Shown: positions 6,194 through 39,588 of the stretch, in pieces
Layout: the number at the start of each line of letters is the position of its first letter
Numbering within the stretch: the first letter of the stretch is position 1
Virus record (IMG/VR): IMGVR_UViG_3300027736_000079
Coordinates: 1-44,466 of that record
Strand: one strand, 5' to 3'
Source: a virus
Length of the DNA stretch: 44,466 bases
Translations under genes and position numbers: made by a program
The notes under the pieces: generated by a model
Told to the model about the DNA's origin: nothing
Database searches by the model: none
What the model saw: only the letters and a program-made list of their open reading frames with translations

Positions 6194-8614
6194 ATGGCAG
6201 ACGTCACAGTCACACTCGGCGCACGCGACGCAGGCCTCCAAGCCGCGATGAACCGCGCCCAAGGGGCCGCCCGAAATTTCATGTCCACATTTTCAAATGT
6301 GGCCGCGCCTCTAGCCGCGCTCGGCGCTCTTGCCGGGGCATTTGCTGCCGTCAAAGGCACGCTCGACATGGGAGGGAGACTCTCCGACATCAGCTCGCAA
6401 ACCGGAATAGCCGTCGGAGACCTAGTCGTCCTCGAGCAAGCCTTTAAAAATTCTGGCCTCTCTGCCGAGCAAGTCGGCCCATCGATCAACAAACTCCAGC
6501 GCGCCATAGTCGAAGCCGGCCAAGGAAGCACCGGAGCTTCTGACACTTTTGCCAAGCTCGGCCTCTCTCTGGCCCAACTAGAGAGTCAGTCGCCTAGCGA
6601 ACAATTTAAATCAGTCGCCACTGCCATTCAAGGCCTTCAGAGCCCGGCCGCTCGCACTGCCGCAGCCATGGAGATTTTCGGTAAAAGCGGCGGAAAAATG
6701 CTCACGCTTTTTGCAGATTCCAACGCTTTCGCGCAAGCCGCCACCCAAGTCGGGGGGCTGGCCGGGGTGATGGATGCCAGCGCTGGCCAATTTGATACCC
6801 TTTCCGATTCGCTCGGAGCCGCCTCGTTAAAAGGTCAGCAACTTTCCGCAGGCTTTACCGCCGCGCTTGCCCCCGCATTAGAAGGCATCGCCTCAGCTCT
6901 CGACCAGACAGACCTCACTAGCCTGGGCCAAAGCCTCGGCACCATGGCCGTAGCTGCAATCAATCTTGCGACCACTCTTTCCACCATGATCCCGGCAATC
7001 ATCGGGGTCACTGTAGCTTTTGCCGCATTTAGATCCGGGGTGGATGCAAAGGTGATCTCCGCGATCGCTCGTATCGGACCCGTGAGCTCCGCCGCATTTG
7101 CTCAAATGCGAATCAGCATGGCAAGCGCCTCCATCAACTTTACCACGATGGGAGCCGCAGGCCGTGCCGCATTTGTTTCTATCGCCGTAGCTGCCCGAGG
7201 AGCCGCTCTTGCTATCAAAGGCGCTCTTATCTCTACCGGCATTGGCATCATCATTGCCGGGATTGCGTTTGCTATTGAAGCCCTCATGGGCCACCTCGCC
7301 GCCTCGAAGGCCGCCATCGAAAATCTTAACTCCTCAATGCAAGACAGCATCTCGGCAGCCCGCGCTCTGTCAGAGGAAATGGACAAAATCTCCACAGAGG
7401 CCGAAAAAGTATCTTTCGGCAAACGGCTAGAAGAGGAAATCGAGCGCACGCGAAAAAAGATCGCCGAACTCCAGAACGACAAGAATCTCGGCGATAAAGA
7501 CAAAAATATGGGCATCTCTGGCCTGCAAAGCCAGATTGATTCCCTCGAGGCCCTCCGCACTGCCGCTGGGAACATCACCCCCGAAGTCCTCGCTGGCCGA
7601 CAAGCAGAAAAAGACCGCGCCGCCGCCCTGGCCGAAAGCGAACGCCAAGCCGCGTCGCTTAACGCTGAACTCGGCAAGGGCAAAGAGGCTCTGGATAAGA
7701 AAATCTCCGACTCCGCATTCAACGACCTCGGCGCGCAAGCGCAGAAGGATACCACCCTCTCCGGAGTCGGTCTCGGATCTACGGCCTCCGTTGATGCCGA
7801 GGTCGAAGCTCTGGCCGCCAAGCGCGAATCCACTTTCCTCACAGGGGAGGAAGCCAAGCGCATGGAAGCTCTCCTCGAAGCCCGTTCCAAATTGGTGGAC
7901 ATCGAAAAAGCCATTAACAGCGAGCGCGGCAAGGGCAAAGAGGCTCTGGATAAGAAAATCTCCGACTCCGCATTCAACGACCTCGACGCGCAAGCGCAGA
8001 AGGATACCACCCTCTCCGGAGTCGGTCTCGGATCTACGGCCTCCGTTGATGCCGAGGTCGAAGCTCTGGCCGCCAAGCGCGAATCCACTTTTCTCACCGA
8101 CGAGGAAGCCAAGCGCATGGAAGCTCTCCTCGAAGCCCGTTCCAAATTGGTGGACATCGAAAAAGCCATTAACAGCGAGCGCGAAAAGGCGTCCGAGCAG
8201 GCCGCCGCCAACGTCGAGCTACAAAAAACTCTTCAACTCGAACTTGCCATCGCCGAAGCCCGCGCCAGCAAGGACACGCAGGAGGAAGCCAAGCTTCAAT
8301 TTGTTAAAGATTACCAATCTGCCCTTGAGCGCGCCCGGCAAGCGGGCATCGAAGGCAACGCCGCCTTTGATTTTGCCAATCGCTCTGCCAACGCCGGAGC
8401 CGCTGTACGTCAAGAAGACGGTAGCCCGTCAGGGCAAAACACTCAATCCACCAACCAACCCCTCTTCGCCAGCTCCCTCGCCAAGATCGGCGGCGGGGGC
8501 GGCATCGCCGGGGGACCCAACGCCCTGCTGGACGAAAACCGCCGCCAGACGAATTACCTCCGCCAAATATCCCTGCGCCTCAGCACCCTCAACACCAGCC
8601 CACTCCTCACCTAA
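6194..8614 (+). CDS. Tape measure protein, phage A
   Basis: At 806 residues this is the longest protein of the module and it has tape measure features. There is an Ala/Gly-rich N-terminal helical region, a hydrophobic stretch near residues 335-370 (ALISTGIGIIIAGIAFAIEA), then long charged helices. It sets tail length and enters the cell wall during DNA ejection. Residues 494-578 and 579-663 are two tandem copies of an 85-residue unit, about 98% identical in DNA. The predicted tail is therefore about 12-13 nm longer than without the duplication, using the usual 1.5 angstrom per residue. It is not visibly related to tape measure B at 42,406. Confidence 0.9.
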   Translation: MADVTVTLGARDAGLQAAMNRAQGAARNFMSTFSNVAAPLAALGALAGAFAAVKGTLDMGGRLSDISSQTGIAVGDLVVLEQAFKNSGLSAEQVGPSINKLQRAIVEAGQGSTGASDTFAKLGLSLAQLESQSPSEQFKSVATAIQGLQSPAARTAAAMEIFGKSGGKMLTLFADSNAFAQAATQVGGLAGVMDASAGQFDTLSDSLGAASLKGQQLSAGFTAALAPALEGIASALDQTDLTSLGQSLGTMAVAAINLATTLSTMIPAIIGVTVAFAAFRSGVDAKVISAIARIGPVSSAAFAQMRISMASASINFTTMGAAGRAAFVSIAVAARGAALAIKGALISTGIGIIIAGIAFAIEALMGHLAASKAAIENLNSSMQDSISAARALSEEMDKISTEAEKVSFGKRLEEEIERTRKKIAELQNDKNLGDKDKNMGISGLQSQIDSLEALRTAAGNITPEVLAGRQAEKDRAAALAESERQAASLNAELGKGKEALDKKISDSAFNDLGAQAQKDTTLSGVGLGSTASVDAEVEALAAKRESTFLTGEEAKRMEALLEARSKLVDIEKAINSERGKGKEALDKKISDSAFNDLDAQAQKDTTLSGVGLGSTASVDAEVEALAAKRESTFLTDEEAKRMEALLEARSKLVDIEKAINSEREKASEQAAANVELQKTLQLELAIAEARASKDTQEEAKLQFVKDYQSALERARQAGIEGNAAFDFANRSANAGAAVRQEDGSPSGQNTQSTNQPLFASSLAKIGGGGGIAGGPNALLDENRRQTNYLRQISLRLSTLNTSPLLT
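7673..8182 (+). repeat. 255-bp tandem in-frame duplication in tape measure gene
   Basis: Unit 1 is 7673-7927 and unit 2 is 7928-8182. Both start GGCAAGGGCAAAGAGG and end AACAGCGAGCGC. By reading I count about five mismatches, three of them clustered at the ACAGGGGAG/ACCGACGAG site. The unit is a multiple of three, so the reading frame is kept. The very high identity indicates a recent event. Confidence 0.95.
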
Positions 8615-16222: not shown

Positions 16223-18595
16223 ATGGCCGTCATAAAAGCAGCCGCAAGCGGGAACTGGAGCGCGACAGGGACTTGGACAGGCGGCGTAGTGCCAACGCTC
16301 AACGATACGGTCTACGCCAATAGCTTCACGGTCGCACTCGACCAATCCATCGACCTTACAGGCTCGACCGTGGACACAAGCGGATCGTTTATCCCAGGCC
16401 AAATTTACATGGTCGTATCTCTGGGCACGACGAACTTTGCATTGACGGCAAACTGCATTGCACCTGGCACAAATGCAGGAACCCCGGTTGCGATCACCTC
16501 GGCAGTCGGTCAGATTTTTCAAGCGGTCAACGCTGGAACTGCGACCACCGGAACCGCTCGCAGAATGGGTGCGTTGTTGAACTACGTGAATACGCCGCTC
16601 ACGATTGCGACAGGCGGGAGCTTCACGCTGGCGGCAAATTACAACATCACCGGTGCATACATACAGGCAGGCTCCGCGAACTGCTTGACGGTCTCCGCCG
16701 CCGCAAGCTCAACGCTCGCAGGATGCCGTGCGACAGGATCGGCATTTACTCTCTCAACTCGCGCAATCGCATTTTCATCCAGTGGCACGCTTACGCTTAA
16801 CGGAATCGTCGCCATCGGCGGCAGGGTTACAGGGACAACGGCTGCGGACGGAGCGCACGCTATCGAATCCACTTCAGCGGCAGGCACGATTGCATTTACA
16901 AATGCCAGCACGCTCACAGGTGGAAGCGGCGGCTTCGCATTTGGTATCAATAATAACAGCACAGGAGTGGTCACCGTCACATCTGGTACGTTAACAGGAG
17001 GGGCTGCATTTTCTTACAGCCTAAACAACAACAGCACAGGCACGGTCACCATAACCTCCAGCTCTGTGACTGGTGGAAGCGTCACCAACGGAATCTGTCT
17101 CAATAACGCCAGCACAGGTACGATCACCATCACCTCCAGCACGATCATGGGTGGAACCACCCAAGCCACAGGCATTACCAACGCGAGCACAGGAACGATC
17201 ACCGTTACATCAAGCACGGTTACAGGTGGGAGCAGCACCAACGCATTCGGACTCAACAACGCCAGCACAGGCACAATCACCGCCACCTCGACCACGCTAA
17301 CAGGCGGGAGCGGCACAACCGCCGCAGGACTCAACAATGCCAGCACAGGAACTATTGTCTCGACAGGCGACATCACCGCGACCAACTCGGCAAATGGATT
17401 GGTATCGTCAAGCACAGCCGCCAGCGTCAAGGTGAGCGGCTCGCTCATAAGCAGCGCAAACGGCACAGCCGCCGTCTACGCCATCAAATTCTTAATCGAT
17501 CCCACGCCGACAACTGCAACGGTGCGATTTGCAAAAAACGGATCGTCGACCTACAGTGACTTTTTTACCGCCGACAACTCGCTCGGACAAGCGTCCGTCG
17601 CCGATGTCCGCAGCGGCACGGTTTACGCCAGCGGAAATCTGACAGGCACATGTGCAGTCCCAGCCGCAGGGTCAGTTAGTCTGGGAGTCCCCGTAGGGGA
17701 CGGCACCGGCACAGCAGTCCTAACCGCCGCCGCGATCCGCACCGAGTTATCCGTGGAGCTGGCCCGAATCGACGCCGCCGTATCCAGCCGCCTCGCGCCA
17801 AGCGGGACGCTGGCAACCGTCACGACATTGACCAACGCGCCGACCGTCCCGACCGCCGCCGCCATCGCCACACAAGTTCGCACGGAGCTTGCCACCGAAC
17901 TTGCGCGAGTGGACGTAGCGACAAGCACGCGCCTCGCTACCAGCGCCTACACGGCTCCGAGCGCAGCGCCAACGGCAGCGCAGAATGCTTCCGCAGTTCG
18001 CACAGAACTAGGGACCGAACTGTCACGCATAGACGCAACGACCTCCAGCCGCCTCGCAAGCTCGGCATACAGCGCCGCACCGACAACCGCGCAGATCGCC
18101 ACAGCGGTCGAAGGATCGCTCTTGAACGAAGCAGACGGGCAAGCCGTCCTTAACGCAATCGTCGGCGCAATCGGCAACACCAACCTCAGCGAAGTCTCCC
18201 TCGTCGCCGCAGTCCGTGCCGACCTCGAGCGCGTCGGCGGAAAAATCGACTCCATCCCGACAACCGCCGCACCGACAGCAGCCGCAAACGCGACCGCAGT
18301 GTGGAGCGCAGCCACCAAACAAATCACAGGCGGCACCGTGGACACATTGACCAACGCGCCGACCGTCCCGACCGCCGCCGCCATCGCCACACAAGTTCGC
18401 ACGGAGCTTGCCACCGAACTTGCGCGAGTGGACGTAGCGACAAGCACACGCCTCGCGTCCTCGGGCTACACAGCGCCAAGCAATTCGGACATCACGGCCA
18501 TCAAAGCCAAGACCGATTTGTTGAACACGGACCGCCTTGCAAACGTGGCCACGACGGCCATCGTCGGCAACCTCATCGCCCAGGCTAATTCCTAA
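16223..18595 (+). CDS. Large beta-solenoid tail spike-like protein
   Basis: A 790-residue Thr/Ser/Gly/Asn-rich protein. It opens with a tail-surface motif (SGNWSATGTWTGG). From about residue 243 it has six repeats of 25 or 26 residues built on NNASTGTITITSS and TGG turns, as expected for a right-handed beta-helix. The C-terminal third is helical and Ala-rich, and contains two near-identical copies of a segment with TNAPTVPTAAAIATQVR (DNA about 17,825-17,937 and 18,344-18,456). A receptor-binding or depolymerising spike is likely, but no catalytic residues can be assigned. Confidence 0.7.
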   Translation: MAVIKAAASGNWSATGTWTGGVVPTLNDTVYANSFTVALDQSIDLTGSTVDTSGSFIPGQIYMVVSLGTTNFALTANCIAPGTNAGTPVAITSAVGQIFQAVNAGTATTGTARRMGALLNYVNTPLTIATGGSFTLAANYNITGAYIQAGSANCLTVSAAASSTLAGCRATGSAFTLSTRAIAFSSSGTLTLNGIVAIGGRVTGTTAADGAHAIESTSAAGTIAFTNASTLTGGSGGFAFGINNNSTGVVTVTSGTLTGGAAFSYSLNNNSTGTVTITSSSVTGGSVTNGICLNNASTGTITITSSTIMGGTTQATGITNASTGTITVTSSTVTGGSSTNAFGLNNASTGTITATSTTLTGGSGTTAAGLNNASTGTIVSTGDITATNSANGLVSSSTAASVKVSGSLISSANGTAAVYAIKFLIDPTPTTATVRFAKNGSSTYSDFFTADNSLGQASVADVRSGTVYASGNLTGTCAVPAAGSVSLGVPVGDGTGTAVLTAAAIRTELSVELARIDAAVSSRLAPSGTLATVTTLTNAPTVPTAAAIATQVRTELATELARVDVATSTRLATSAYTAPSAAPTAAQNASAVRTELGTELSRIDATTSSRLASSAYSAAPTTAQIATAVEGSLLNEADGQAVLNAIVGAIGNTNLSEVSLVAAVRADLERVGGKIDSIPTTAAPTAAANATAVWSAATKQITGGTVDTLTNAPTVPTAAAIATQVRTELATELARVDVATSTRLASSGYTAPSNSDITAIKAKTDLLNTDRLANVATTAIVGNLIAQANS

Positions 18596-20021: not shown

Positions 20022-21047
20022 ATGAAACCCCGCTACTTTGTTACGCCGCACACATCTCGACCCGGCACTTGGAAGCTCGAAATACCAGCCTCTGTTTCTG
20101 GTCGTCGAATAAAAAGATTTTTTAAAACGGAGGCAGAGGCATGGGCTCAGGGGCCTGCGCTTTTGGAGGCCCTGCAAAAAACAGGCACAGACGGCCTCCG
20201 GGACAAAGATCAGGGAGGGCTTTCTATGCGCGGCGCAATCCGTGATTACATTGCAACGAAATCCAAATCTTCGCAGGACCACAAAGACAAGATCGAGCGG
20301 GTGTGCGCTCGATTGCTGGAGGAGTTTGGAGGATCGGTGGCGAATGTGACGCCGCTGAAGGCTGGCCGATGGTTTGATGCCATCGAGGGATCACCGACTA
20401 CACGGGCGGGCTGGCACCGCTACGCCAGCGGATTTTTCGCCTGGTGCGTGGATATGGAATTGATCGACAGAAACCCTTTGCGGCGGATCAAGCCGCCAAA
20501 AGCGGAGCCGAAGCGATCGCTGGTCACAGCGTCCGAAATGGTGACGATTCTGGCCGAGGAAATGAGCGACGAGCTCAGAGCGTGGTTTCTCCTCGGTGGC
20601 TTTGCGGGGCTGAGGTCTATCGAGGTGCGGCGGATGCGTTGGGAAGACGTGGACGCGGCAAGAGGAGAGATCGAAATCCGTCGCGAGGTCTCCAAACAAT
20701 CCACGGGCCTCCCCGAGCGAATCGTGGATTTCACGGAGCCGCTGACGAAGCGGGCGGCTTTCTTTCTGGATGACAAAAAAAAGGGGCTGATCTTGCCTCC
20801 GGCATCACTCCGCATTTACCAAGAGCGGCAGGGGCTCATTGTGAGGCTCCACGAATTAGGAAAACTCCCATGGTCAAAATTCCCTGAGAACGCTTTGCGG
20901 CACTCCTACGCAACCTATCATTTGGGGCGCTGTCAGGATGCCGGAAAGACGGCGCACCAGCTGGGACACTCATCCACGGCGATGGTTAAACGGGTCTATG
21001 CCGTGCCTTCGAGGCGGGCGGATTGGCGGGCGTGGTGGGCTGTTTAA
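20022..21047 (+). CDS. int: Tyrosine recombinase integrase, phage B
   Basis: A 341-residue site-specific recombinase. The N-terminal part (to about 65) would bind arm sites, the region 70-155 is a core-binding helical domain, and the rest is catalytic: Arg198 in GLRSIEV, Lys225, Arg293 in NALRHSYATYH, His316 in LGHSS and nucleophile Tyr326 in VKRVYAVP. The usual first His of the HxxR motif is Asn290, a known variation. The gene lies right beside the tRNA-derived att site, as expected. No Shine-Dalgarno sequence precedes the ATG. Confidence 0.92.
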   Translation: MKPRYFVTPHTSRPGTWKLEIPASVSGRRIKRFFKTEAEAWAQGPALLEALQKTGTDGLRDKDQGGLSMRGAIRDYIATKSKSSQDHKDKIERVCARLLEEFGGSVANVTPLKAGRWFDAIEGSPTTRAGWHRYASGFFAWCVDMELIDRNPLRRIKPPKAEPKRSLVTASEMVTILAEEMSDELRAWFLLGGFAGLRSIEVRRMRWEDVDAARGEIEIRREVSKQSTGLPERIVDFTEPLTKRAAFFLDDKKKGLILPPASLRIYQERQGLIVRLHELGKLPWSKFPENALRHSYATYHLGRCQDAGKTAHQLGHSSTAMVKRVYAVPSRRADWRAWWAV

Positions 21048-24862: not shown

Positions 24863-25762
24863 ATGAAAGAACTAAAAACACATTGGGTCGCGGATATGTA
24901 TCCGCTAAACGAAACGGATGTTTCGGCATTGGCTGAAGACATCAAAACAAACGGGCAGATCGCTCCAATCAAGATGCTAAAAGATGGTCGCATCATTGAT
25001 GGCCGCAATCGCTGGATGGCTTGCCAAAAGGCAGGAGTTGAACCGCTGATTGATGTCATCAATCCAGATGGGGAAGAAGTCACAGACGAGAGGCTTTTTG
25101 CATTGGCGACATCATGCAACTCGATGCGAAGAGACCTGACGACAAGCGAACGCGCCGTTGCTTCGGCGGTCGCTTGGAAGAGGCTTTACCCGGAGGGTGC
25201 GCCTGGCAAAGGTGCAAGAAATGACATTCAACCTAAGTCCAAAAATGGACTTACGTTTGAGGACTTCGCCAGCCAATCCTTCAAGGTTGGAAAGAGCTAC
25301 GCCAAGCAAGCACTTGCTATTGCCAATTATTCGCCAGAGCTTCTTGAAGCAGCAAAAGAATCCTTGGACGGAGCTTACAAGACATACCAATCCGAAAAGC
25401 TCAAGCGCGAAGATGACAAAAGAAACAGACAACTTCTTGTTGATCATCCAGACCTAAAAGAACGTGTCGCAAACGGCAATCTATCCGCTGAAGAAGCGAT
25501 CACAATTGCAAGAAAGCGGGACTCAGAAAAGCTTCAAGCTGAGGAATCAAAGAAACAGGAAAAGGCCTTAGTCGCTCAAGGATTCCACAGAACCATCGAC
25601 CTTTTTCATGGCTTGGCCAACTGGGAGCCCGAGCGGCTTCTGGAAGTCATAGAAGACGAGGAGTCAAGCAGCCTTGCCTCCCGAACAAACCAAGAGGAGG
25701 AGGCCATCCTTCTCGCAATTAACATGCTGACATCAATACACAAAGCAAAATACGCAAAATGA
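24863..25762 (+). CDS. ParB-like protein, phage early region
   Basis: This 299-residue protein begins with a ParB N-terminal domain: LAEDIKTNGQIAPIKM, DGRIIDGRNRWMAC. A helical middle section follows, with an HTH-like stretch around TFEDFASQSFKVGKSYAKQA, and then a charged coiled coil. In phages such proteins act in regulation or DNA binding rather than in partition; no parS or ParA is visible. The gene is richer in A and T than its neighbours, together with the next one, suggesting recent acquisition of the pair. Confidence 0.7.
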   Translation: MKELKTHWVADMYPLNETDVSALAEDIKTNGQIAPIKMLKDGRIIDGRNRWMACQKAGVEPLIDVINPDGEEVTDERLFALATSCNSMRRDLTTSERAVASAVAWKRLYPEGAPGKGARNDIQPKSKNGLTFEDFASQSFKVGKSYAKQALAIANYSPELLEAAKESLDGAYKTYQSEKLKREDDKRNRQLLVDHPDLKERVANGNLSAEEAITIARKRDSEKLQAEESKKQEKALVAQGFHRTIDLFHGLANWEPERLLEVIEDEESSSLASRTNQEEEAILLAINMLTSIHKAKYAK

Positions 25763-26784: not shown

Positions 26785-27146
26785 TCTTATCACCCGACTT
26801 TCCAGACCACTACAAAACCAAGATCCTGCTCAAGATGGCAGGCCACGCCGGCGTCTTTTCCCTCATCAAACTCTGGGCCCAATGCCAATTCAGGCGCACA
26901 GAACGGATCGAGAAGCCAACCGAGATCGTGGCCGCGATAGCCGATTGGGAAGGGGACGCGGATCACCTCGAAACGGCGCTCATCGAAAGCGGATTCGCCA
27001 GGCGTGATGGGGACACCTTCATCCTCCATCAATGGGAGGACCAAAACAAGAAACTTTTCACCAGCTACGCCAACGGGAAAAAGGGCGGAAAGCCCAAAAG
27101 CGAGTCACCTAAAGCGTTGAAAAAGCCAGCCGCTTTAAAACTCTAA
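26781..27146 (+). CDS. Replication initiator-like protein (short)
   Basis: The 121-residue product resembles the N-terminal winged-helix part of phage replication organiser proteins: GHAGVFSLIKLWAQCQ, then ALIESGFARRDGDTFILHQW, and a basic Gly/Lys tail (YANGKKGGKPKSES). Such proteins bind origin repeats and load the helicase. The gene ends five bases before six iterons and is followed by the DnaB-like helicase. Compared with lambda O (about 300 residues) it is short and lacks an obvious helicase-binding domain. Confidence 0.55.
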   Translation: MILSPDFPDHYKTKILLKMAGHAGVFSLIKLWAQCQFRRTERIEKPTEIVAAIADWEGDADHLETALIESGFARRDGDTFILHQWEDQNKKLFTSYANGKKGGKPKSESPKALKKPAALKL

Positions 27147-27150
27147 AATA

Positions 27151-27216
27151 CCTAACGCTAACCTAACGCTAACCTAACCCTAACCTAAATGGAACCTAAA
27201 GCTAACCTAAAGCAAA
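27151..27216 (+). repeat. Six tandem 11-bp iterons
   Basis: Perfectly phased 11-base units begin at 27,151, 27,162, 27,173, 27,184, 27,195 and 27,206: CCTAACGCTAA twice, CCTAACCCTAA, CCTAAATGGAA, CCTAAAGCTAA and CCTAAAGCAAA. All begin CCTAA. The spacing of about one helical turn puts all sites on one face of the DNA, as for initiator-binding iterons. Confidence 0.9.
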
Positions 27217-27317
27217 CCCAGCACGCCCTAGATAGATAGATAGAATATCTATTCTATCGAATAGATAGCTGCGCTCTGGCTGACGCCAGCGCAGCTCAGA
27301 CGGAAACCACCAAAAAC
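27217..27317 (+). other. Putative replication origin: AT-rich palindrome and hairpin
   Basis: After the iterons come GATA repeats and the inverted repeat GATAGAATA-TC-TATTCTATC (27,239-27,258). These lie in a strongly AT-rich stretch that could unwind easily. A hairpin AGCTGCGCT-(CT)-GGC-TGAC-GCC-AGCGCAGCT at 27,267-27,296 follows. With iterons on one side and the helicase start at 27,318 on the other, this is the best origin candidate in the window. No T-run follows, so a terminator is unlikely. Confidence 0.65.
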
Positions 27318-28583
27318 ATGAACCTCCGAAAAACCGATTTTTACTCTGCCACGACCCATACGCAGAACGTCCCGCAAAACCTCTCCGCCGAGCAATCCGC
27401 AATCTCGATCATCCTCCAAGCCGACGACCTCCTAGACATGGCAAAGTGGGACCAAGACCTTTTCCTCCAATCTGCCCACCGCACGATCCTCAAAGCGATC
27501 AAGGAAACCCGCGCCGCCGGGCGACAAGTAAACCTCTTCACGATCCAAGCCAAGCTCGAGGAAACCGGAAAGCTCGAAGATATCGGCGGTGCCTCCGCCC
27601 TTTTCATCATCAAAGAGCATTACCCATGTGCTGACAGGGAAAGCGCTCTGGACTTCCGCAAGGATCTCATCAAGGCCCGACGCTACCGCCGAGCCATGCA
27701 GAAACTCCATGAGACTAAGGCCGACATCAGCCTTATGACGGCGGACCTATCCGACCTCGCCGCAACTCTCACCTATGACGATGACCCCGAAAGCCAAGAA
27801 ATCACAATCAAGACGCAATGCGAAAACCTTATCACCTCACTCGAAAGCCTCACGCCGCCGGAACGCATTAAATCAAACATCCAAGAGCTTGACTATCTTC
27901 TCAATGGCGGGTTTGAACTTGGCACCGTGGCCGTTGCCGCCAGCGAAACCTCTGGAGGAAAGAGCATTTTCCTACTGCAAGCCGCCCTCAACGGAGCCAT
28001 CGATCATCAGCCAGGCATTATCTTCAGCCTTGAAATGACGGCCAGCTCGGTCATCTCCCGCATGGCAGCGTGCAAGTCCGGCCACCGCGTCGTGAGTGCC
28101 TATGACCACCCCACCGCGGAACAAATGCAGGGAATGGCCATCGGCATCCGAACCATCGCCCGACTCCCGATCACGGTACACGACCAGATCACGACCATCG
28201 ATGACATCGAGGTCGCCTGTCACCAAGGAGCCAAGGCCGGCATGAAATGGATCGTTGTGGACTACATCCAACTCTGCACGGTCGGCGAATCATCCAAGGC
28301 CGAAACCCGCGAGCAACAGGTGAGCGAAGTCGTCCGCCGCCTCAAAATTCTCGCCCTCAAGCACAATATCGTCGTTTTTACCGCCTCACAAATGAATGAC
28401 GGTGGCGAGCTGCGCGAGTCCCGCGCCGTTGGACACCATGCCGACTATGTGCTCCACATCGATCATTCCGACAAGGCCGCGCCGGTCATCCGAGTCATCA
28501 AGAACCGCAACGGAGAACGCCACGTCTTCGCCCCTGTGAAAATGCGCGGTGACATCTCCCGATTTGAAGGGCGCACGAAATGA
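27318..28583 (+). CDS. DnaB-like replicative helicase
   Basis: A 421-residue protein with the DnaB plan: an N-terminal helical domain (LSAEQSAISIIL to about 150), a linker, then a RecA-type core with GFELGTVAVAA, Walker A SETSGGKS (209-216), SLEMTASSVISRM, Walker B WIVVDYIQL (311-319), TASQMNDGG and a HADYVLHI segment. The Walker A motif is unusual because a Ser stands where Ala or Gly normally starts the loop. It would unwind DNA at the phage fork after loading by the upstream initiator. Confidence 0.85.
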   Translation: MNLRKTDFYSATTHTQNVPQNLSAEQSAISIILQADDLLDMAKWDQDLFLQSAHRTILKAIKETRAAGRQVNLFTIQAKLEETGKLEDIGGASALFIIKEHYPCADRESALDFRKDLIKARRYRRAMQKLHETKADISLMTADLSDLAATLTYDDDPESQEITIKTQCENLITSLESLTPPERIKSNIQELDYLLNGGFELGTVAVAASETSGGKSIFLLQAALNGAIDHQPGIIFSLEMTASSVISRMAACKSGHRVVSAYDHPTAEQMQGMAIGIRTIARLPITVHDQITTIDDIEVACHQGAKAGMKWIVVDYIQLCTVGESSKAETREQQVSEVVRRLKILALKHNIVVFTASQMNDGGELRESRAVGHHADYVLHIDHSDKAAPVIRVIKNRNGERHVFAPVKMRGDISRFEGRTK

Positions 28584-31468: not shown

Positions 31469-31980
31469 CCATCGAACACCTCAAAACCTCCGACCTCATC
31501 CCGTATGCCAGAAATGCGAAAAAGCACGACGCTGCTCAAATTTCTAAGTTGTGCGGAAGTATAAAAGAGTTCGGCTTCACCAACCCCGTCCTCATCGATC
31601 GCGACAACGGCATCATAGCCGGCCACGGTCGCGTGCTCGCCGCTCAATCCCTCGCCCTCGAGTCCGTCCCCTGCATCCGCCTCGGCCACCTCTCCGACAC
31701 GCAGCGCCGAGCCTACATCCTCGCCGACAACCGACTCGCGGAGATCGGCGGTGGGTGGGACGAGGAAATGCTGAAGCTCGAGCTGGCGGATCTTCGTGAG
31801 CTTGATGTTGATTTCGACTGCCTCGGCTTCGATGCTGACATGATCGAGCAAAAGCTAAATCCGCCTGAGCCGGAAGAAAATTACCCTGACTCATCTTCAA
31901 AAGAAATTGACGTGGACGGAATGCAAATGGAATGCGCCTGTCCAAAATGTGGATTTGAATTTGATCCAAAGAAGCCATGA
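31465..31980 (+). CDS. ParB/sulfiredoxin-fold protein with C-terminal zinc ribbon
   Basis: The 171-residue product has a ParB N-terminal fold: LIPYARNAKKHDAAQISKL, GFTNPVLID, GIIAGHGRVLAAQSL, YILADNRLAE. This is the version often found beside phage DNA methyltransferases. It ends with CACPKCGFEFDP, a short zinc-binding motif. The pairing with the following methyltransferase suggests a role in choosing or modifying DNA sites. It sits between terS and terL with ATGA overlaps on both sides. Confidence 0.75.
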   Translation: MTIEHLKTSDLIPYARNAKKHDAAQISKLCGSIKEFGFTNPVLIDRDNGIIAGHGRVLAAQSLALESVPCIRLGHLSDTQRRAYILADNRLAEIGGGWDEEMLKLELADLRELDVDFDCLGFDADMIEQKLNPPEPEENYPDSSSKEIDVDGMQMECACPKCGFEFDPKKP

Positions 31981-33026
31981 AGAAACCAGAATGCGCATGG
32001 ATGCTTGCTGACCTGAAGGCAGTTCCGCAGAACGGAATCAAAGTCATGTCGACTTTTGCTTGCGGTGGCGGAAGCTCAATGGGCTACAAGCGCGCCGGTT
32101 GCCAGATCGTCGCCGCCAATGACATCGACCCGGAAATGGCGTGGCACTACAAGAAGAACCTAAACCCGCCAAACTACTTCCTATGTCCGATCCGCGACTT
32201 GCTCACGGCAGACTTGCCGCCCGAGCTTTTCGCCTTAGACATCCTCGACGGATCGCCGCCGTGCTCGACGTTCAGCATGGCAGGAAGCCGTGAAGAAGGC
32301 TGGGGCAAAGATAAACACTTTCGCGAGGGACAGGCAAAGCAAGTATTGTCTGACCTATTCTTCGACTATCTTGACCTAGTCGAGCGGCTCAAGCCGCGCG
32401 TGGCTATCGCCGAAAACGTCAAGGGCATGATTCTTGGCAATGCCAAAGGCTACACAAAGATGGTGATGGCACGGTTTAAAGAGATCGGATACCGGCCACA
32501 ACTTTTCCTTTTGAACGGGGCGGATTGCGGAGTCCCGCAGCGAAGGGAAAGGGTTTTCTTTGTGGCGATCCGTGACGACATCAAAACACCGCCACTGAAG
32601 CTCGCGCCAAAGCATCGGTGGATTTCAGCTGGTGAGGCGATCGCGGATTTGCGAAATCTAACAGATTCGGAACTGGGTGATAATTTGCTTAGATCAAACA
32701 CAGACAAAACATGGTGGCCATTAACAAAGCCAGGAGAAGATTATGCCGAAGCCGTTCGACGCGCCGGACAAAAAGAAAAACTTTGGAATCACAAAAAACT
32801 TTCTGGGGCTGAACCATCAAGAGGACTTACGGCAACAGATATGTTCAAGCATTGGGATGAGTGCCGAACCCTCACCTTCCGCGAATGGAAACGCCTCGGC
32901 AGCTTTCCTGACGACTACCACGCCAAGACCGACAAGATCGGAAAATACATGATCGGCATGAGCGTCCCGCCAAAGATGACAGAGCAAGTCGCCCGCGCCG
33001 TGATTGATCAGTGGCTCACATCATGA
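31977..33026 (+). CDS. C5-cytosine DNA methyltransferase
   Basis: A complete 349-residue cytosine methyltransferase with the ordered motifs: STFACGGGSSMGYKRAG (motif I), DGSPPCSTFS with catalytic Cys96 (IV), AIAENVKG (VI, Glu146), CGVPQRRERVFF (VIII), a variable target-recognition part around 215-300, and a final motif near YMIGMSVPP. No restriction enzyme lies nearby, so it is an orphan that may protect phage DNA. The target sequence cannot be read. Parts of the gene are less GC-rich than terL. Confidence 0.9.
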   Translation: MKKPECAWMLADLKAVPQNGIKVMSTFACGGGSSMGYKRAGCQIVAANDIDPEMAWHYKKNLNPPNYFLCPIRDLLTADLPPELFALDILDGSPPCSTFSMAGSREEGWGKDKHFREGQAKQVLSDLFFDYLDLVERLKPRVAIAENVKGMILGNAKGYTKMVMARFKEIGYRPQLFLLNGADCGVPQRRERVFFVAIRDDIKTPPLKLAPKHRWISAGEAIADLRNLTDSELGDNLLRSNTDKTWWPLTKPGEDYAEAVRRAGQKEKLWNHKKLSGAEPSRGLTATDMFKHWDECRTLTFREWKRLGSFPDDYHAKTDKIGKYMIGMSVPPKMTEQVARAVIDQWLTS

Positions 33027-35110: not shown

Positions 35111-36865
35111 GTGTCGATAAATCAAAGCGAAATCAAAGTATCAAAGCGGGGTGGCTTACGCCCAGGGGCCGGACGCCCACGCAAGCCAGAAGCCAAGGCC
35201 GCCGCGTTTGAAGCCGCTCAACCCTCGCTGAATCGCGGCTACATCTGGATGCCGACCACCGACCCCAAGCGCGAGCTCACGCCCACCTCGCGCATGGAGA
35301 TCCTGCGACTCGCTCGCTGGCTTTACAATAACGCGCCACAAGCCACCTACATTGTCGAGCATCTCGCCCAGCGTGCTATCGGCACAGGCATTGTCGTCCA
35401 GCCTAAAACCTCGAATCTCGCGTGGAACAAAAAGGTCGATCAGTATTTTGAAGATCGCAACTGCGCTGAGGCGTGGGCATTTGATGCCGGCGCACAGGTG
35501 AATTTCTACACCGCGCAATCTCTCATACTCCGACAAGTCGCCATCGATGGTGATTTTTTCGCCCAATTTCTCACGACAAAACAGAACGCATCCCGCGTCC
35601 GCTTTATCGGTGGCGAGGCCGTCGGCGGCATCAACTCATTTGGCAACACAGACGAGTTCACGCATGACGGCGTGCGCCTCGACCCATTCGGTGCGCCCTC
35701 CGCTTATATCATCGACGGTCAAGACATCCTCGCCGATCAAGTCCTACACTTCCGCCACATCCGCCGGCACGGTCAACCCCGTGGCGTTTCATGGCTGCAT
35801 TCCGCATGCGCCAACCTCCGCGATATTTCCGAAATCAACGGATTCGTCAAGGGAGCCTACAAGGCCGGATCTCAAATCGGCTACATGGTCACCTCCTCCG
35901 AGGTCGCCAAGATCGGACTCGGTTCAGGTTTTAAATCTACCAGCAACGAAGTCGGCGACCTTTCCACAAGCGACCTCCCGAACGGCATCCTCTTGCCCCG
36001 CCTCAAGCCAGGCGAAAAGCTCGAAGCCTTTAAAAACGACATCCCCGGCCAGACCTATGAAGCCGTAATGCGTGCGCTCCGCTCAGATGTCGCCTTCGCC
36101 ATCGGCCTCCCACCCGAAGCCATGCTGGTCAATGTCGGACTCGGAGGCACCGAGCAACGCGCCGTTCTCGAAGTCACGCAGAATTTCCTAGAGCGCCTGC
36201 AACAAATGGTCATCGATCAGTTTTGCCGCCCTTACTACAAGTATTGGCTCTGGCATGAGATCCAAGCCGGTCGATTGGATTACCCTGGTGATGATTGGTG
36301 GCGTCACGAATGGCTCGCCCCACGCAAGATCACGGTGGACTCAGGCCGCGACGCCCGCGCCTACAGCGAACAACTCGACAAGGGCCACATCTCACCGACT
36401 CGCTTTTACAACATGCAAGGCCTCCGCGCCGAAGAGGAAGAGGAAGACGTCATCCAGACCTTCCTTCGCCGCAAAGCCAAATGCGAATCCCTCGGGCTCA
36501 ACATCTCCGAAGTATTTCCGAACTCCGTCAGCCGAGGCATAGCGGCCCAACAACCCGCCGCGCCAGATCAAGGCGGTTCCGAAGATCAACCACAAACCCA
36601 AGAAGGCGAAATTTTCGACATGCAGGCGAAAGAAAAACTCGACGCCATCGGCGCAGCCGTGCGAGCCGGTGTCATTACGCCCTCGCAAGAAGTCGAAAGC
36701 TCCATCCGCTCCATGCTGGCCTTGCCAGAAATGAATGAGGAAGTCCTAAGCGAATGGAACAAAAACCCAATCCGCTCACCGATCACGCTCACCAACGCGC
36801 TTGCCGATCCGGTCCAGCCGACACCGCCACCACTCCCCGAAGATTTAACACCCATCGAACCATGA
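35111..36865 (+). CDS. Portal protein, lambda gpB family, phage B
   Basis: The 584-residue product starts at GTG 35,111. It has the lambda-type portal plan: TSRMEILRLARWLYNNAPQA in the N-terminal wing, IVEHLAQRAIGTGI, VAIDGDFFAQFL, then QPRGVSWLHSACANLRDISE and GQTYEAVMRALRSD in the stem and crown region. The first 30 residues carry GGLRPGAGRPRKPE, an AT-hook-like arm that is unusual for a portal. The C-terminus is a helical and Pro-rich tail identical to the fragment at window start. Confidence 0.88.
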   Translation: MSINQSEIKVSKRGGLRPGAGRPRKPEAKAAAFEAAQPSLNRGYIWMPTTDPKRELTPTSRMEILRLARWLYNNAPQATYIVEHLAQRAIGTGIVVQPKTSNLAWNKKVDQYFEDRNCAEAWAFDAGAQVNFYTAQSLILRQVAIDGDFFAQFLTTKQNASRVRFIGGEAVGGINSFGNTDEFTHDGVRLDPFGAPSAYIIDGQDILADQVLHFRHIRRHGQPRGVSWLHSACANLRDISEINGFVKGAYKAGSQIGYMVTSSEVAKIGLGSGFKSTSNEVGDLSTSDLPNGILLPRLKPGEKLEAFKNDIPGQTYEAVMRALRSDVAFAIGLPPEAMLVNVGLGGTEQRAVLEVTQNFLERLQQMVIDQFCRPYYKYWLWHEIQAGRLDYPGDDWWRHEWLAPRKITVDSGRDARAYSEQLDKGHISPTRFYNMQGLRAEEEEEDVIQTFLRRKAKCESLGLNISEVFPNSVSRGIAAQQPAAPDQGGSEDQPQTQEGEIFDMQAKEKLDAIGAAVRAGVITPSQEVESSIRSMLALPEMNEEVLSEWNKNPIRSPITLTNALADPVQPTPPPLPEDLTPIEP

Positions 36866-37986
36866 CCACACCCAACTCCACTCCGAAATTTTATGCAATG
36901 GAATCCACCGGCAACAACGAAACCACGGTCACTCTTTACGACGAAATCGGTGCTTTTGGCGCAGGCTCAAAACAATTCCTCGGAGACCTTAGTAAGCTCT
37001 CCGGTCAGCACATCCACCTCCGCATCAACTCGCCCGGTGGGTCCGTGGTTGAGGGAACGGCCATTTACAATGCGCTCCGCAGGCATCAAGGCGGGGTGAC
37101 CGTTCACATCGACGCGCTCGCCGCCTCGATGGCCTCCGTCATCGCCATGGCCGGCGCTCCGGTCTACATAGCCGACAACGCCCTGATGATGATCCATAAC
37201 CCTTGGACCGTCAGCATGGGAGGAAGCGAAGACCTTCGCAAAGAAGCCGACCTCCTTGACATGCTCAAAGTCAATCTGCGCAACGCCTACGTCCGCAAGA
37301 CCGGCATGAGCGAAACCGATATTTCCGCCATGATGGACGCCGAGACATGGCTCGACGCAGTGGACGCCGTCGCCCTCGGATTTGCCGACGCCATCGAAGA
37401 AGGAGTCGCAGCAGCTGCAACAGCCACCCCCGAAAATCTCCGCGCTCGTTTTGACACCTTCGCGAAGGGAAAACCTATGGACAACATCGAACCAACCGCC
37501 GCCCCAGAAGTAGAGGCAACCGTCGTGAGCGAATCCGCTCCAGTTGAGCAACCAGCTACCGAACCCGCTCCCGCCGTGGAAGCCGAACCCGTAGCACAAG
37601 AAGTCATCACCCCCGCTATCGAGGAAATCGGCGAAACTCCCGCCGTCGAAGAGCCACAAGCCAAGATTACCGGCGCAGACAGCATCCTTGCAAAATACAA
37701 CGCCGTTATCACCGAGCGTGACGAAGCCGTTGCATCCCTCAAAGAAGCCAGCGCAAAAATCGAGATCTTGCACAATGTGATCAACACAGAACGCGAAGCC
37801 CTTGCCCGCCTTGAGCGTAGCCTCGGCCTATCCGCAGCCCGCGAAATCCCAGCTGTCACGCCAACAGAAAACGCCGCAAACATCTACGACCAGTGGAAAA
37901 ACGCCACCGGCGCAGAGAAGACCCGCATCTTCCGAGCCAACCGCAAGGCGCTCGAAATCGCATCCAAAAATTTGACACCGCAATAA
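36862..37986 (+). CDS. Phage B prohead protease/scaffold fusion, ClpP/S49-like
   Basis: A 374-residue counterpart of the gene at 242, with the same catalytic motifs (AASMAS, MMIHNPW, DAETWLDAVDA). It is seven residues longer because the coiled coil (TERDEAVASLKEASAKIEIL) replaces an unrelated stretch in copy A, while both flanks (DSILAKYN and ARLERSLGLSAAR) match. This is a local module exchange inside one gene. The ATG overlaps the portal stop. Confidence 0.9.
   Translation: MTTPNSTPKFYAMESTGNNETTVTLYDEIGAFGAGSKQFLGDLSKLSGQHIHLRINSPGGSVVEGTAIYNALRRHQGGVTVHIDALAASMASVIAMAGAPVYIADNALMMIHNPWTVSMGGSEDLRKEADLLDMLKVNLRNAYVRKTGMSETDISAMMDAETWLDAVDAVALGFADAIEEGVAAAATATPENLRARFDTFAKGKPMDNIEPTAAPEVEATVVSESAPVEQPATEPAPAVEAEPVAQEVITPAIEEIGETPAVEEPQAKITGADSILAKYNAVITERDEAVASLKEASAKIEILHNVINTEREALARLERSLGLSAAREIPAVTPTENAANIYDQWKNATGAEKTRIFRANRKALEIASKNLTPQ
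37477..37986 (+). CDS. Possible internally started scaffold protein, phage B
   Basis: The ATG at 37,477 (MDNIEPTAAP) would give a 169-residue scaffold. TTGACA at 37,451-37,456 lies 20 nt before it, exactly as in copy A, although surrounding bases differ. It is listed on the lambda Nu3 analogy; the start is not proven. Confidence 0.35.
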   Translation: MDNIEPTAAPEVEATVVSESAPVEQPATEPAPAVEAEPVAQEVITPAIEEIGETPAVEEPQAKITGADSILAKYNAVITERDEAVASLKEASAKIEILHNVINTEREALARLERSLGLSAAREIPAVTPTENAANIYDQWKNATGAEKTRIFRANRKALEIASKNLTPQ

Positions 37987-38029
37987 TTCACGAAAACCCG
38001 AATCCAACCCACCAACTCAAAATAACATC

Positions 38030-38935
38030 ATGGCCACTACCATCAGCTCCGAACTTAAACTGAATGTCGTTCTCGACAGCGCTCTCATCGCGCTTCGTGA
38101 AGCACTTCTCCCACTCAACTCTTTCTCGACTGTCTACAACAGCGTACCGCTGCAAGGCACCGACAAGATCGCCGTTCCCTTCTTCCCTCTCGCCACAGAC
38201 GCGACGAGCGACTTCAACGGAACGTATGCGTTCTCCGATTCAAACGCGATCAACAGCCGCGAGATCACGGTGAACAAGCGCAAGTATCAAGCGCTCTCCT
38301 TCACATCGAGCGAACTCGCTCGCCAGCCTTACTTCAACCCCGAGCAACTCGGATTCTTGAAAGGCCGCAAGCTCGCCGAAGACATTCTCCGCGACATCCT
38401 CGGAGTCGTGACGCTCGCCAACTACGGCGCAGCGATCCACACCGGCGCAGCTTCCAGCTTCGACAGCGACGATTTGATCACCATGAAGACCGTGCTCGAC
38501 CAATCCAAATGGGCGAAATCCAGCCGCGTCATGATCCTCGACAACGCTTATGAAGGCGCTCTTCTCAAAGACGCATCGATCAAAAACGCAGCCGCAGTCG
38601 GCAGCGCATCCGCAATCCAAAACGGACGCCTCCCACAGATCGCTGGCTTTGACGTTATCGGCACCAACCTTATCCCCGGCAACTCGCAGAACCTTGTCGG
38701 AATGGTTGCTCTTCCAGAAGCAATATTGGTTGCCTTCTCGCCAGTGGCCCCATCGCCCGGCGTTCGCAACAATCTCACAGCATACGAAGTGGCAGTCGAT
38801 CCAGAGACCGGCCTTACCATCGAGTACCGTAGCTGGGGCGATCCTGACACCGACACCGAGAAATCAGTTATCGAGGTCAACTACGGCTTCGCACTCGGCC
38901 ACGCCGCCGCCCTCAAGCGCATCGTTTCAGCTTAA
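38030..38935 (+). CDS. Phage B major capsid protein
   Basis: This 301-residue protein differs from copy A at two residues only, both Ile in place of Met or Val. Silent changes are scattered along the gene, so the copies are not an assembly echo of one sequence. The 43-base leader is unchanged. The role is main capsid subunit, as for copy A. Confidence 0.85.
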   Translation: MATTISSELKLNVVLDSALIALREALLPLNSFSTVYNSVPLQGTDKIAVPFFPLATDATSDFNGTYAFSDSNAINSREITVNKRKYQALSFTSSELARQPYFNPEQLGFLKGRKLAEDILRDILGVVTLANYGAAIHTGAASSFDSDDLITMKTVLDQSKWAKSSRVMILDNAYEGALLKDASIKNAAAVGSASAIQNGRLPQIAGFDVIGTNLIPGNSQNLVGMVALPEAILVAFSPVAPSPGVRNNLTAYEVAVDPETGLTIEYRSWGDPDTDTEKSVIEVNYGFALGHAAALKRIVSA

Positions 38936-38940
38936 TCTTC

Positions 38941-39177
38941 ATGCGCCTTGGAATCACACTCGCACGCAACGGCGACACTTGGCAGGTCAAGCACCTGCCC
39001 AGCGTCCCGCTCGCCGAGCAACTCACCGACTTCAAAGCCAAGCAAGTAGCCGGTGAGTTCAGCGCAGACGAAACCATCATCGTATCACTCAACGAAACTC
39101 TGAAGCGCCACGCCTCAAAGCACAGCGCCGTTGTTGAAGTCGAAGGCATGGAAGAGTCGCCCAAGAAGAAGAAGTAA
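38941..39177 (+). CDS. Small conserved protein after the capsid gene, phage B
   Basis: The 78-residue product is one residue longer than copy A (an extra Gly in VEVEGMEESPKKKK). Position, leader and following terminator are the same. The function is unknown. Confidence 0.8.
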   Translation: MRLGITLARNGDTWQVKHLPSVPLAEQLTDFKAKQVAGEFSADETIIVSLNETLKRHASKHSAVVEVEGMEESPKKKK

Positions 39178-39208
39178 TTCCTCGCGCCTCACAGCGCCCA
39201 ACCCGCAA

Positions 39209-39247
39209 AGCCCGGCTGGAGCCTTTCCCAGCCGGGCTTTTCTTTTT
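39209..39247 (+). terminator. Rho-independent terminator after capsid operon, phage B
   Basis: AGCCCGGCTGG (39,209-39,219) pairs with CCAGCCGGGCT (39,228-39,238) and is followed by TTTCTTTTT. The stem is identical to copy A and only the loop differs. Confidence 0.93.
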
Positions 39248-39264
39248 GACACCTCGCCACGGGT
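39246..39264 (+). promoter_or_regulatory. TTGACA-N13 element before head-tail gene, phage B
   Basis: TTGACA (39,246-39,251), 13 bases ending GGGT, then ATG at 39,265. The 13 bases differ from phage A at several places but the spacing and final GGGT are kept. Confidence 0.5.
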
Positions 39265-39588
39265 ATGTCGCCCGACGCGATCCGCACCTTCACTCTCACC
39301 GCCGCCGCGCTGCGCAATTCCGCCCTTGGCCACACGGCCACCTTCCGCAGCCAGCCCCTTCGCGTCGTTCTCTCGCCCATCGCCATCGGCCTCGATCTCG
39401 AGACGGGCGGACTTCGCCAGGGCGGGGAATTCACTTGCCGATTTTTGGCAACATCCCTGAGCACCCCGCCGCGCCGTGGCGAGCAGATCCTTGTCGGTGG
39501 CAAGGCCTACACGATCCAGACCCTCAAAGAGGTCATCACCACCCCAGGCGAATACGTCGCCATGATCTCCCCCGGCTCCTCCTTATGA
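39265..39588 (+). CDS. Head-tail connector/adaptor protein, phage B
   Basis: A 107-residue homologue of 2619-2942, the same length but with well under half of its residues identical. It keeps GLDLETGGLRQGGEFTCRFL and PPRRGE. The abrupt change from near-identity upstream to distant homology here marks the mosaic boundary. Its stop overlaps the next start. Confidence 0.65.
   Translation: MSPDAIRTFTLTAAALRNSALGHTATFRSQPLRVVLSPIAIGLDLETGGLRQGGEFTCRFLATSLSTPPRRGEQILVGGKAYTIQTLKEVITTPGEYVAMISPGSSL

Follow-up and report, generated by a model that had tools for sequence, protein, structure and literature searches.

A putative iteron-type replication origin outside a shortened initiator gene in an environmental phage genome

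The DNA analysed here (the window) is the whole of IMG/VR record IMGVR_UViG_3300027736_000079, 44,466 nucleotides in length, in which a search for end repeats found none. Its replication module contains a short initiator-like open reading frame (ORF) followed along the same strand by an array of iterons, an AT-rich GATA element, a bulged hairpin and the gene of a DnaB-like helicase (Table 1), and it raises the question of whether replication starts in this intergenic stretch and how a helicase could be loaded there by so small a protein. An initial annotation, made from the sequence alone, had proposed a phage origin between an initiator-like and a helicase gene, and both flanking genes turned out as claimed, the upstream product matching PHROG 9474 ('replication initiation protein', E 5e-6) and the downstream one Pfam DnaB_C. 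As single-stranded DNA the locus has a folding energy of -19.5 kcal/mol (z = -5.4 against shuffles). The cumulative GC skew, proposed as a check, shows no extreme at 27.2 kb and is uninformative here. The reading developed below, which we regard as very probably correct, is that positions 27150–27296 form an iteron-type origin with initiator-bound iterons, melting of the GATA element and loading of DnaB, in a family derived from phages that carry their iterons inside the initiator gene.

Table 1. Features of the putative origin and its flanking genes (positions in the window)
Feature	Position	Strand	Remarks
Initiator, 121 aa	26781–27146	+	Predicted winged-helix domain and KKGGKPK basic tail; without the C-terminal domain of full-length homologues
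Six tandem 11-bp iterons	27150–27216	+	Consensus AACCYAAnnnn as in relatives; start 3 nt past the stop codon
Degenerate seventh unit, ACCCAGCACGC	27216–27226	+	In register
AT-rich GATA element, candidate unwinding element	27229–27268		25% GC; three arms, pairing into either of two alternative hairpins
Hairpin H0, ATAGATA[GAA]TATCTAT	27236–27252		Watson-Crick pairing kept despite sequence change
Hairpin H1, TATCTATTC[TATC]GAATAGATA	27246–27267		Covariation; loop TANC on the top strand, GNTA on the bottom strand
Hairpin H2, AGCTGCG(CT)CTGGC[TGAC]GCCAG CGCAGCT	27267–27296		7 bp, 2-nt 5' bulge CT, 5 bp, loop TGAC
DnaB-like replicative helicase	27318–28583	+	Pfam DnaB_C E 4e-29, DnaB_N E 5e-12; PHROG 19 E 3e-54; directly downstream of the putative origin

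Tandem Repeats Finder delimited the array at 27150–27218 (period 11, 6.3 copies, 84% matches), and a repeat search gave a start-to-start spacing of 11 throughout. The best 11-bp periodicity score over 66 bp was 46, whereas 200 order-1 Markov versions of the whole window averaged 27.7 and did not exceed 32, and period 11 scored highest among the eleven periods tested. The units read, in order, CCTAACGCTAA (twice), CCTAACCCTAA, CCTAAATGGAA, CCTAAAGCTAA and CCTAAAGCAAA, followed by the degenerate CCCAGCACGCC; a single isolated unit, CCTAAAGCG, is found within the initiator gene at 27108. The six adjacent units described in the initial annotation are thus confirmed, almost exactly where it had placed them, as are the GATA-rich palindrome behind them, which resolves into overlapping palindromes and contrasts in GC content with the window as a whole (57%), and the 12-bp bulged hairpin. 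The 11-bp spacing also stands, while the alignment of all sites on one face of the helix holds only approximately, as units of 11 bp on a helix of 10.5 bp per turn drift by about 17 degrees each. The stop codon of the initiator gene (27144–27146) precedes the array, and the iterons are therefore not inside the gene as in the ori/O/P arrangement of lambda. The telomere-like appearance of CCCTAA within the units is a coincidence, the relatives having AACCCAAnnnn instead.

Viral contigs contain 73 relatives of the window initiator, and a profile search adds further ones. Among 71 distinct environmental cases with readable sequence downstream of the initiator, DnaB was detected within 500 nt in 61, and 60 of these 61 have four or more 11-bp units in register; in the one remaining case (L068) the units are degenerate, with the 11-bp spacing retained. 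Across the relatives the spacing is 11 bp in 208 of 221 intervals, the consensus is AACCCAAnnnn with four variable positions, and the order is stop codon, iterons, three-arm palindrome and GC-rich hairpin, then DnaB. A lack of iterons in relatives that keep both flanking genes, which the initial annotation had named as evidence against an origin, is thus not what the relatives show, and this recurrence of the layout supports its interpretation. No match to the window initiator was seen in cultured phages and no prophage relative was found in a bacterial genome collection; the lone match in a bacterial genome (L096, 59% over 27 aa) is a chance peptide inside a long ORF resembling NAD-glutamate dehydrogenase.

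The PHROG 9474 match of the initiator concerns its N-terminal part only and covers positions 55–110 of the 288 in the profile, so that it is not full-length and indicates kinship through the N-domain only. The AF2 model (mean pLDDT 77, core above 90) predicts a winged helix whose nearest solved structures include the N-terminal domain of RepA from staphylococcal plasmids (4pql), the part of that protein that binds iterons. The resemblance is modest: the comparison gave a VIA Z of 6.9, a modest value below 8, with an rmsd of 2.5 over 76 aa, and other winged helices score alike. Every Foldseek match of the model had E above 0.01, and a profile sequence search of the PDB returned weak chance matches only.

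A closer relationship is provided by three phage proteins (L186, L191 and L200) with 39–43% identity to the window initiator (E about 1e-22 to 1e-26), the alignment extending from initiator residue 1 through KGGRPK and beyond in L200 and L191, and over residues 28–106 of the compared ORF in L186. All three carry the iterons inside the gene, immediately past the KGGRPK codons, and in L186 the in-frame sequence AACCCAACGATAACCCAAACGAAACCC is the iteron sequence of the extragenic relatives. The C-terminal parts of L186 and L200 match 'replication initiation' and 'O-like' PHROGs (E 2e-21 to 1e-31), and DnaB lies directly 3' of both genes. Set against these homologues, the window family lacks the C-terminal domain and has its stop codon before the iterons, which places the predicted origin outside the coding sequence. 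The simplest history would be that the C-terminal domain was lost and a stop codon set ahead of the iterons, a direction of change that we infer, and the suggestion that the initiator might be of a cut-down type gains support from these full-length forms.

The same code was found well beyond this family. A scan for four tandem AACCYAAnnnn units gave, among the distinct matches listed, 58 in the extragenic family, 33 within ORFs and 10 in neither class; a second scan, with a different base at the variable position, added 52 in-ORF loci and 17 distinct matches in neither class, and in both scans some of the matches in neither class are low-complexity repeats. The 11-bp code AACCnAAnnnn thus lies inside at least about 80 other phage ORFs, many of them recognisable initiators. 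The motif encoded just before the array is typically NGxKGGRPKK, with GG in 26 of 33 cases from the first scan (among the matches listed) and GGxP in 40 of 52 from the second. Most of ten sampled in-ORF proteins match initiator, primosomal or DnaD-like PHROGs (labelled primosomal protein, replication initiation protein and DnaD-like loader), and their N-domains belong to several families, including DUF6291, DUF1376 and Lin1244_N. Two cultured phages, Riemerella phage GRNRAP2 and Nitratiruptor phage NrS-3, carry such in-gene iterons in genes annotated 'hypothetical protein'. The 11-bp iterons are absent from the Acinetobacter and Pseudomonas initiators L295, L296 and L298, which share their C-terminal domain with L179. 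In L298 (Acinetobacter phage Ab105-2phideltaCI404ad) the primosomal-protein gene (CDS 1015–1791) has a strong 18-bp period (score 48), probably located at the TEIGTGTEIGTG coding stretch, and this is perhaps another in-gene array of different length. Past the in-gene iterons of L180, L265, L272, L294, L297, L320 and others, AT-rich GATAAN/GTAAATGATAAT repeats encode DKDKDK or NVNDNVN; they may be the coding counterpart of the window GATA element, an unwinding tract disguised as protein repeats.

Inspection of the region between the iterons and the helicase gene showed that three inverted repeats (H0, H1 and H2) are kept by compensatory change. For H0, 196 of 200 cells in 25 representatives are Watson-Crick pairs and 3 are G-T, values biased upward by the choice of the longest stem for H0 and H1 in this count, while the sequence shifts among relatives from GATAGATA to GATAGAGTA to CAGACAGAT. 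H1, which was missed in L054 and L120 in that count owing to too narrow a search range, was recounted with the stem anchored on the loop: in 13 family members 97.3% of the cells are paired and six of the nine pairs changed on both sides. The H1 covariation score is 0.517, compared with 0.171 for shuffled alignments (none of 500 shuffles reached it) and far lower values when the stem was slid, and rises to 0.853 (against 0.238) with in-gene examples added. As MAFFT misaligns the hairpin region across subfamilies, stems were hand-anchored on the loop or bulge; in 12 sequences so treated H2 has 144 Watson-Crick pairs, one G-T and one mismatch, and all 12 carry the 2-nt bulge on the 5' side (CT in 11, AT in one), whereas some other family members fit a shifted register or have no bulge (L060). 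H0 and H1 have one arm in common and cannot both form on one strand.

A C-G pair mostly closes the loop of H1. Among DNA tetraloops, d(cGNNAg) stands out for its exceptional stability. PMC5815330 describes a related family of stable d(GNA) triloops closed by a CG pair. Hairpins with C[TANC]G, one of which the window has, also occur 70–149 nt downstream of in-gene iterons in L174, L183, L186, L200 and L260, phages with other initiators. Of the strong hairpins with a 4-nt loop in a first set, 5 of the 11 situated no more than 250 nt from the iterons are of this type, compared with none of 27 elsewhere on those contigs, and a second scan gave 2 of 10 near iterons and none of 54 elsewhere (p 0.02); the pooled p of 6e-6 is slightly optimistic, L186 and L200 being related. 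The C[TANC]G hairpin is thus a recurrent, though not universal, element.

Three known arrangements help to interpret this layout. In oriLambda, iterons and an AT-rich tract lie in the middle of gene O (PMC7466680). The window shares with it the tandem iterons beside an AT-rich tract in a replication module, and the C-terminal domain of the window initiator's full-length relatives matches O-like PHROGs; it differs in its 11-bp units outside the gene, the covarying hairpins, the 121-aa initiator without a C-terminal domain, and DnaB itself downstream instead of a P-type loader. In plasmid pSK41, the N-terminal 120 residues of Rep bind Rep boxes in the middle of rep, the linker that the origin encodes is dispensable, and contact with primase is made through the C-terminal domain (PMC5703833). 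The likeness to this RepA_N-type origin (structures 4pql, 5kbj and 4pt7) lies in a winged-helix, repeat-binding N-terminal domain of about 120 aa, predicted in the case of the window, and in the repeats inside the gene of the full-length phage homologues; the window initiator, however, has no RepA_N Pfam match (up to E 1) and no DnaD-like DnaG-binding C-terminal domain, and its repeats are extragenic. The third arrangement is that of the in-gene AACCnAAnnnn phage initiators, with the same 11-bp code after NGxKGGRPK, then an AT-rich tract and in some a downstream C[TANC]G hairpin, but there the iterons are translated, the proteins are mostly of about 160–310 aa with a C-terminal part, and no GATA three-arm element or bulged hairpin was noticed. 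The best reading of the window locus is a trimmed, extragenic variant of a lambda/pSK41-like theta origin, initiator binding and origin activity being deduced from these parallels.

By analogy with pSK41 and lambda, the predicted winged-helix initiator would bind the tandem iterons, the nucleoprotein array would melt the adjoining GATA element, and the DnaB-like helicase, the product of the next gene, would be loaded on the exposed strand. In the presumed ancestors the iterons would have been within a longer initiator gene, between a DNA-binding domain ending in KGGRPK and an O-like C-terminal domain. H0, H1 and H2 are probably DNA hairpins that arise once the region is unwound and could hold the strands apart or recruit helicase or primase. 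The record contains no match to IstB/DnaC-like loaders, lambda P, PHROG 345, PHROG 5810, PF06992 or PF01695, no O-like C-domain and no DnaB_2/DnaD-type domain, the initiator ending at residue 121; helicase loading may rest on the host, the basic tail of the initiator, a self-loading DnaB, or the hairpins. The last option can be extended to the idea that folded DNA stands in for the initiator domain that was lost: after melting of the GATA tract, the hairpins on the separated strands (with their conserved TANC top-strand or C-GNTA-G bottom-strand loop and conserved 2-nt bulge) would recruit or orient the phage DnaB or primase, so that a bare 121-aa DNA-binding protein suffices. In this proposal, which we consider doubtful, the C[TANC]G hairpin would date back to early forms of this origin type, given that phages with unrelated initiators also have it behind their in-gene iterons.

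The same elements could instead serve regulation, with the small winged helix-turn-helix protein on the repeats controlling helicase expression and the hairpins acting in the dnaB mRNA leader. They do lie within a leader of 109–193 nt between both genes in nearly all relatives, and two alternative hairpins with a common arm recall an attenuator. A consensus scan, however, found no sigma-70-like promoter or intrinsic terminator in the leader, Rfam gave no credible match for the region, and the homologues have the same iterons within coding sequence. G-U pairs are almost missing among the many compensated pairs, which points to DNA rather than RNA as the folding molecule, without being proof. 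We consider regulation improbable as the explanation of the locus.

Plasmid centromeres can also be iteron arrays, and a ParB-like protein (PHROG 4715, E 3e-15) is encoded upstream at 24863–25762, which might have the array as its partition site; but no ParA-like protein was present among the part of the ORFs scanned, and in distant phages the array follows the DNA-binding domain of the initiator within the initiator gene, which makes a centromere-like site very improbable. Least credible of all is that the repeats are relics of a coding low-complexity linker (KTQTKPNPT) with no function of their own as DNA. Such linkers are indeed what the repeats are translated into in most other phages, but a period of 11 is no codon multiple, and in the window family the units are untranslated and nevertheless in register in nearly all distinct relatives, with the four spacer positions varying. 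With a period not divisible by 3 and with units that persist outside coding sequence, the array is kept as DNA, in line with the origin reading.

Iteron origins in phage replication modules are an already known kind. The present one differs in an 11-bp code common to initiators of several families, in its extragenic placement behind a C-terminally trimmed initiator and in the strongly covarying hairpins; no description of these features, the code in phage initiators among them, was found in the open PMC papers searched, whose coverage is incomplete. With AACCnAAnnnn every 11 bp after KGGRPK-encoding DNA as a guide, candidate origins can be located by sequence in phages with initiators annotated as 'hypothetical', many of them environmental and some cultured. 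The window family offers a natural separation of origin and coding sequence, in which iterons, AT-rich element and hairpins could be mutated without altering the protein, and poses the question of how an initiator that lacks the usual C-terminal domain loads a helicase.

Some other features of the record were noted. Stretches 1–2802 and 36621–39448 are 91% identical, and after the second one the order protease, capsid ... tape measure recurs with diverged genes, the two tape measures sharing about 30% identity along a short portion. The record holds slightly more than a single genome, the size of which is about 36.6 kb; it joins two related phages in the manner of a tandem lysogen or of a chimeric assembly. 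A tyrosine recombinase at 20022–21047 (Phage_integrase, E 3e-8) makes a temperate lifestyle probable. A 255-bp tandem duplication (7659–8189, 98% matches) lies within a tape-measure-like ORF and 78-bp repeats (17024–17349, 4.2 copies, 72%) within a long ORF of the tail region, and a C-5 cytosine DNA methyltransferase (31977–33026, E 4e-49) adjoins the terminase.
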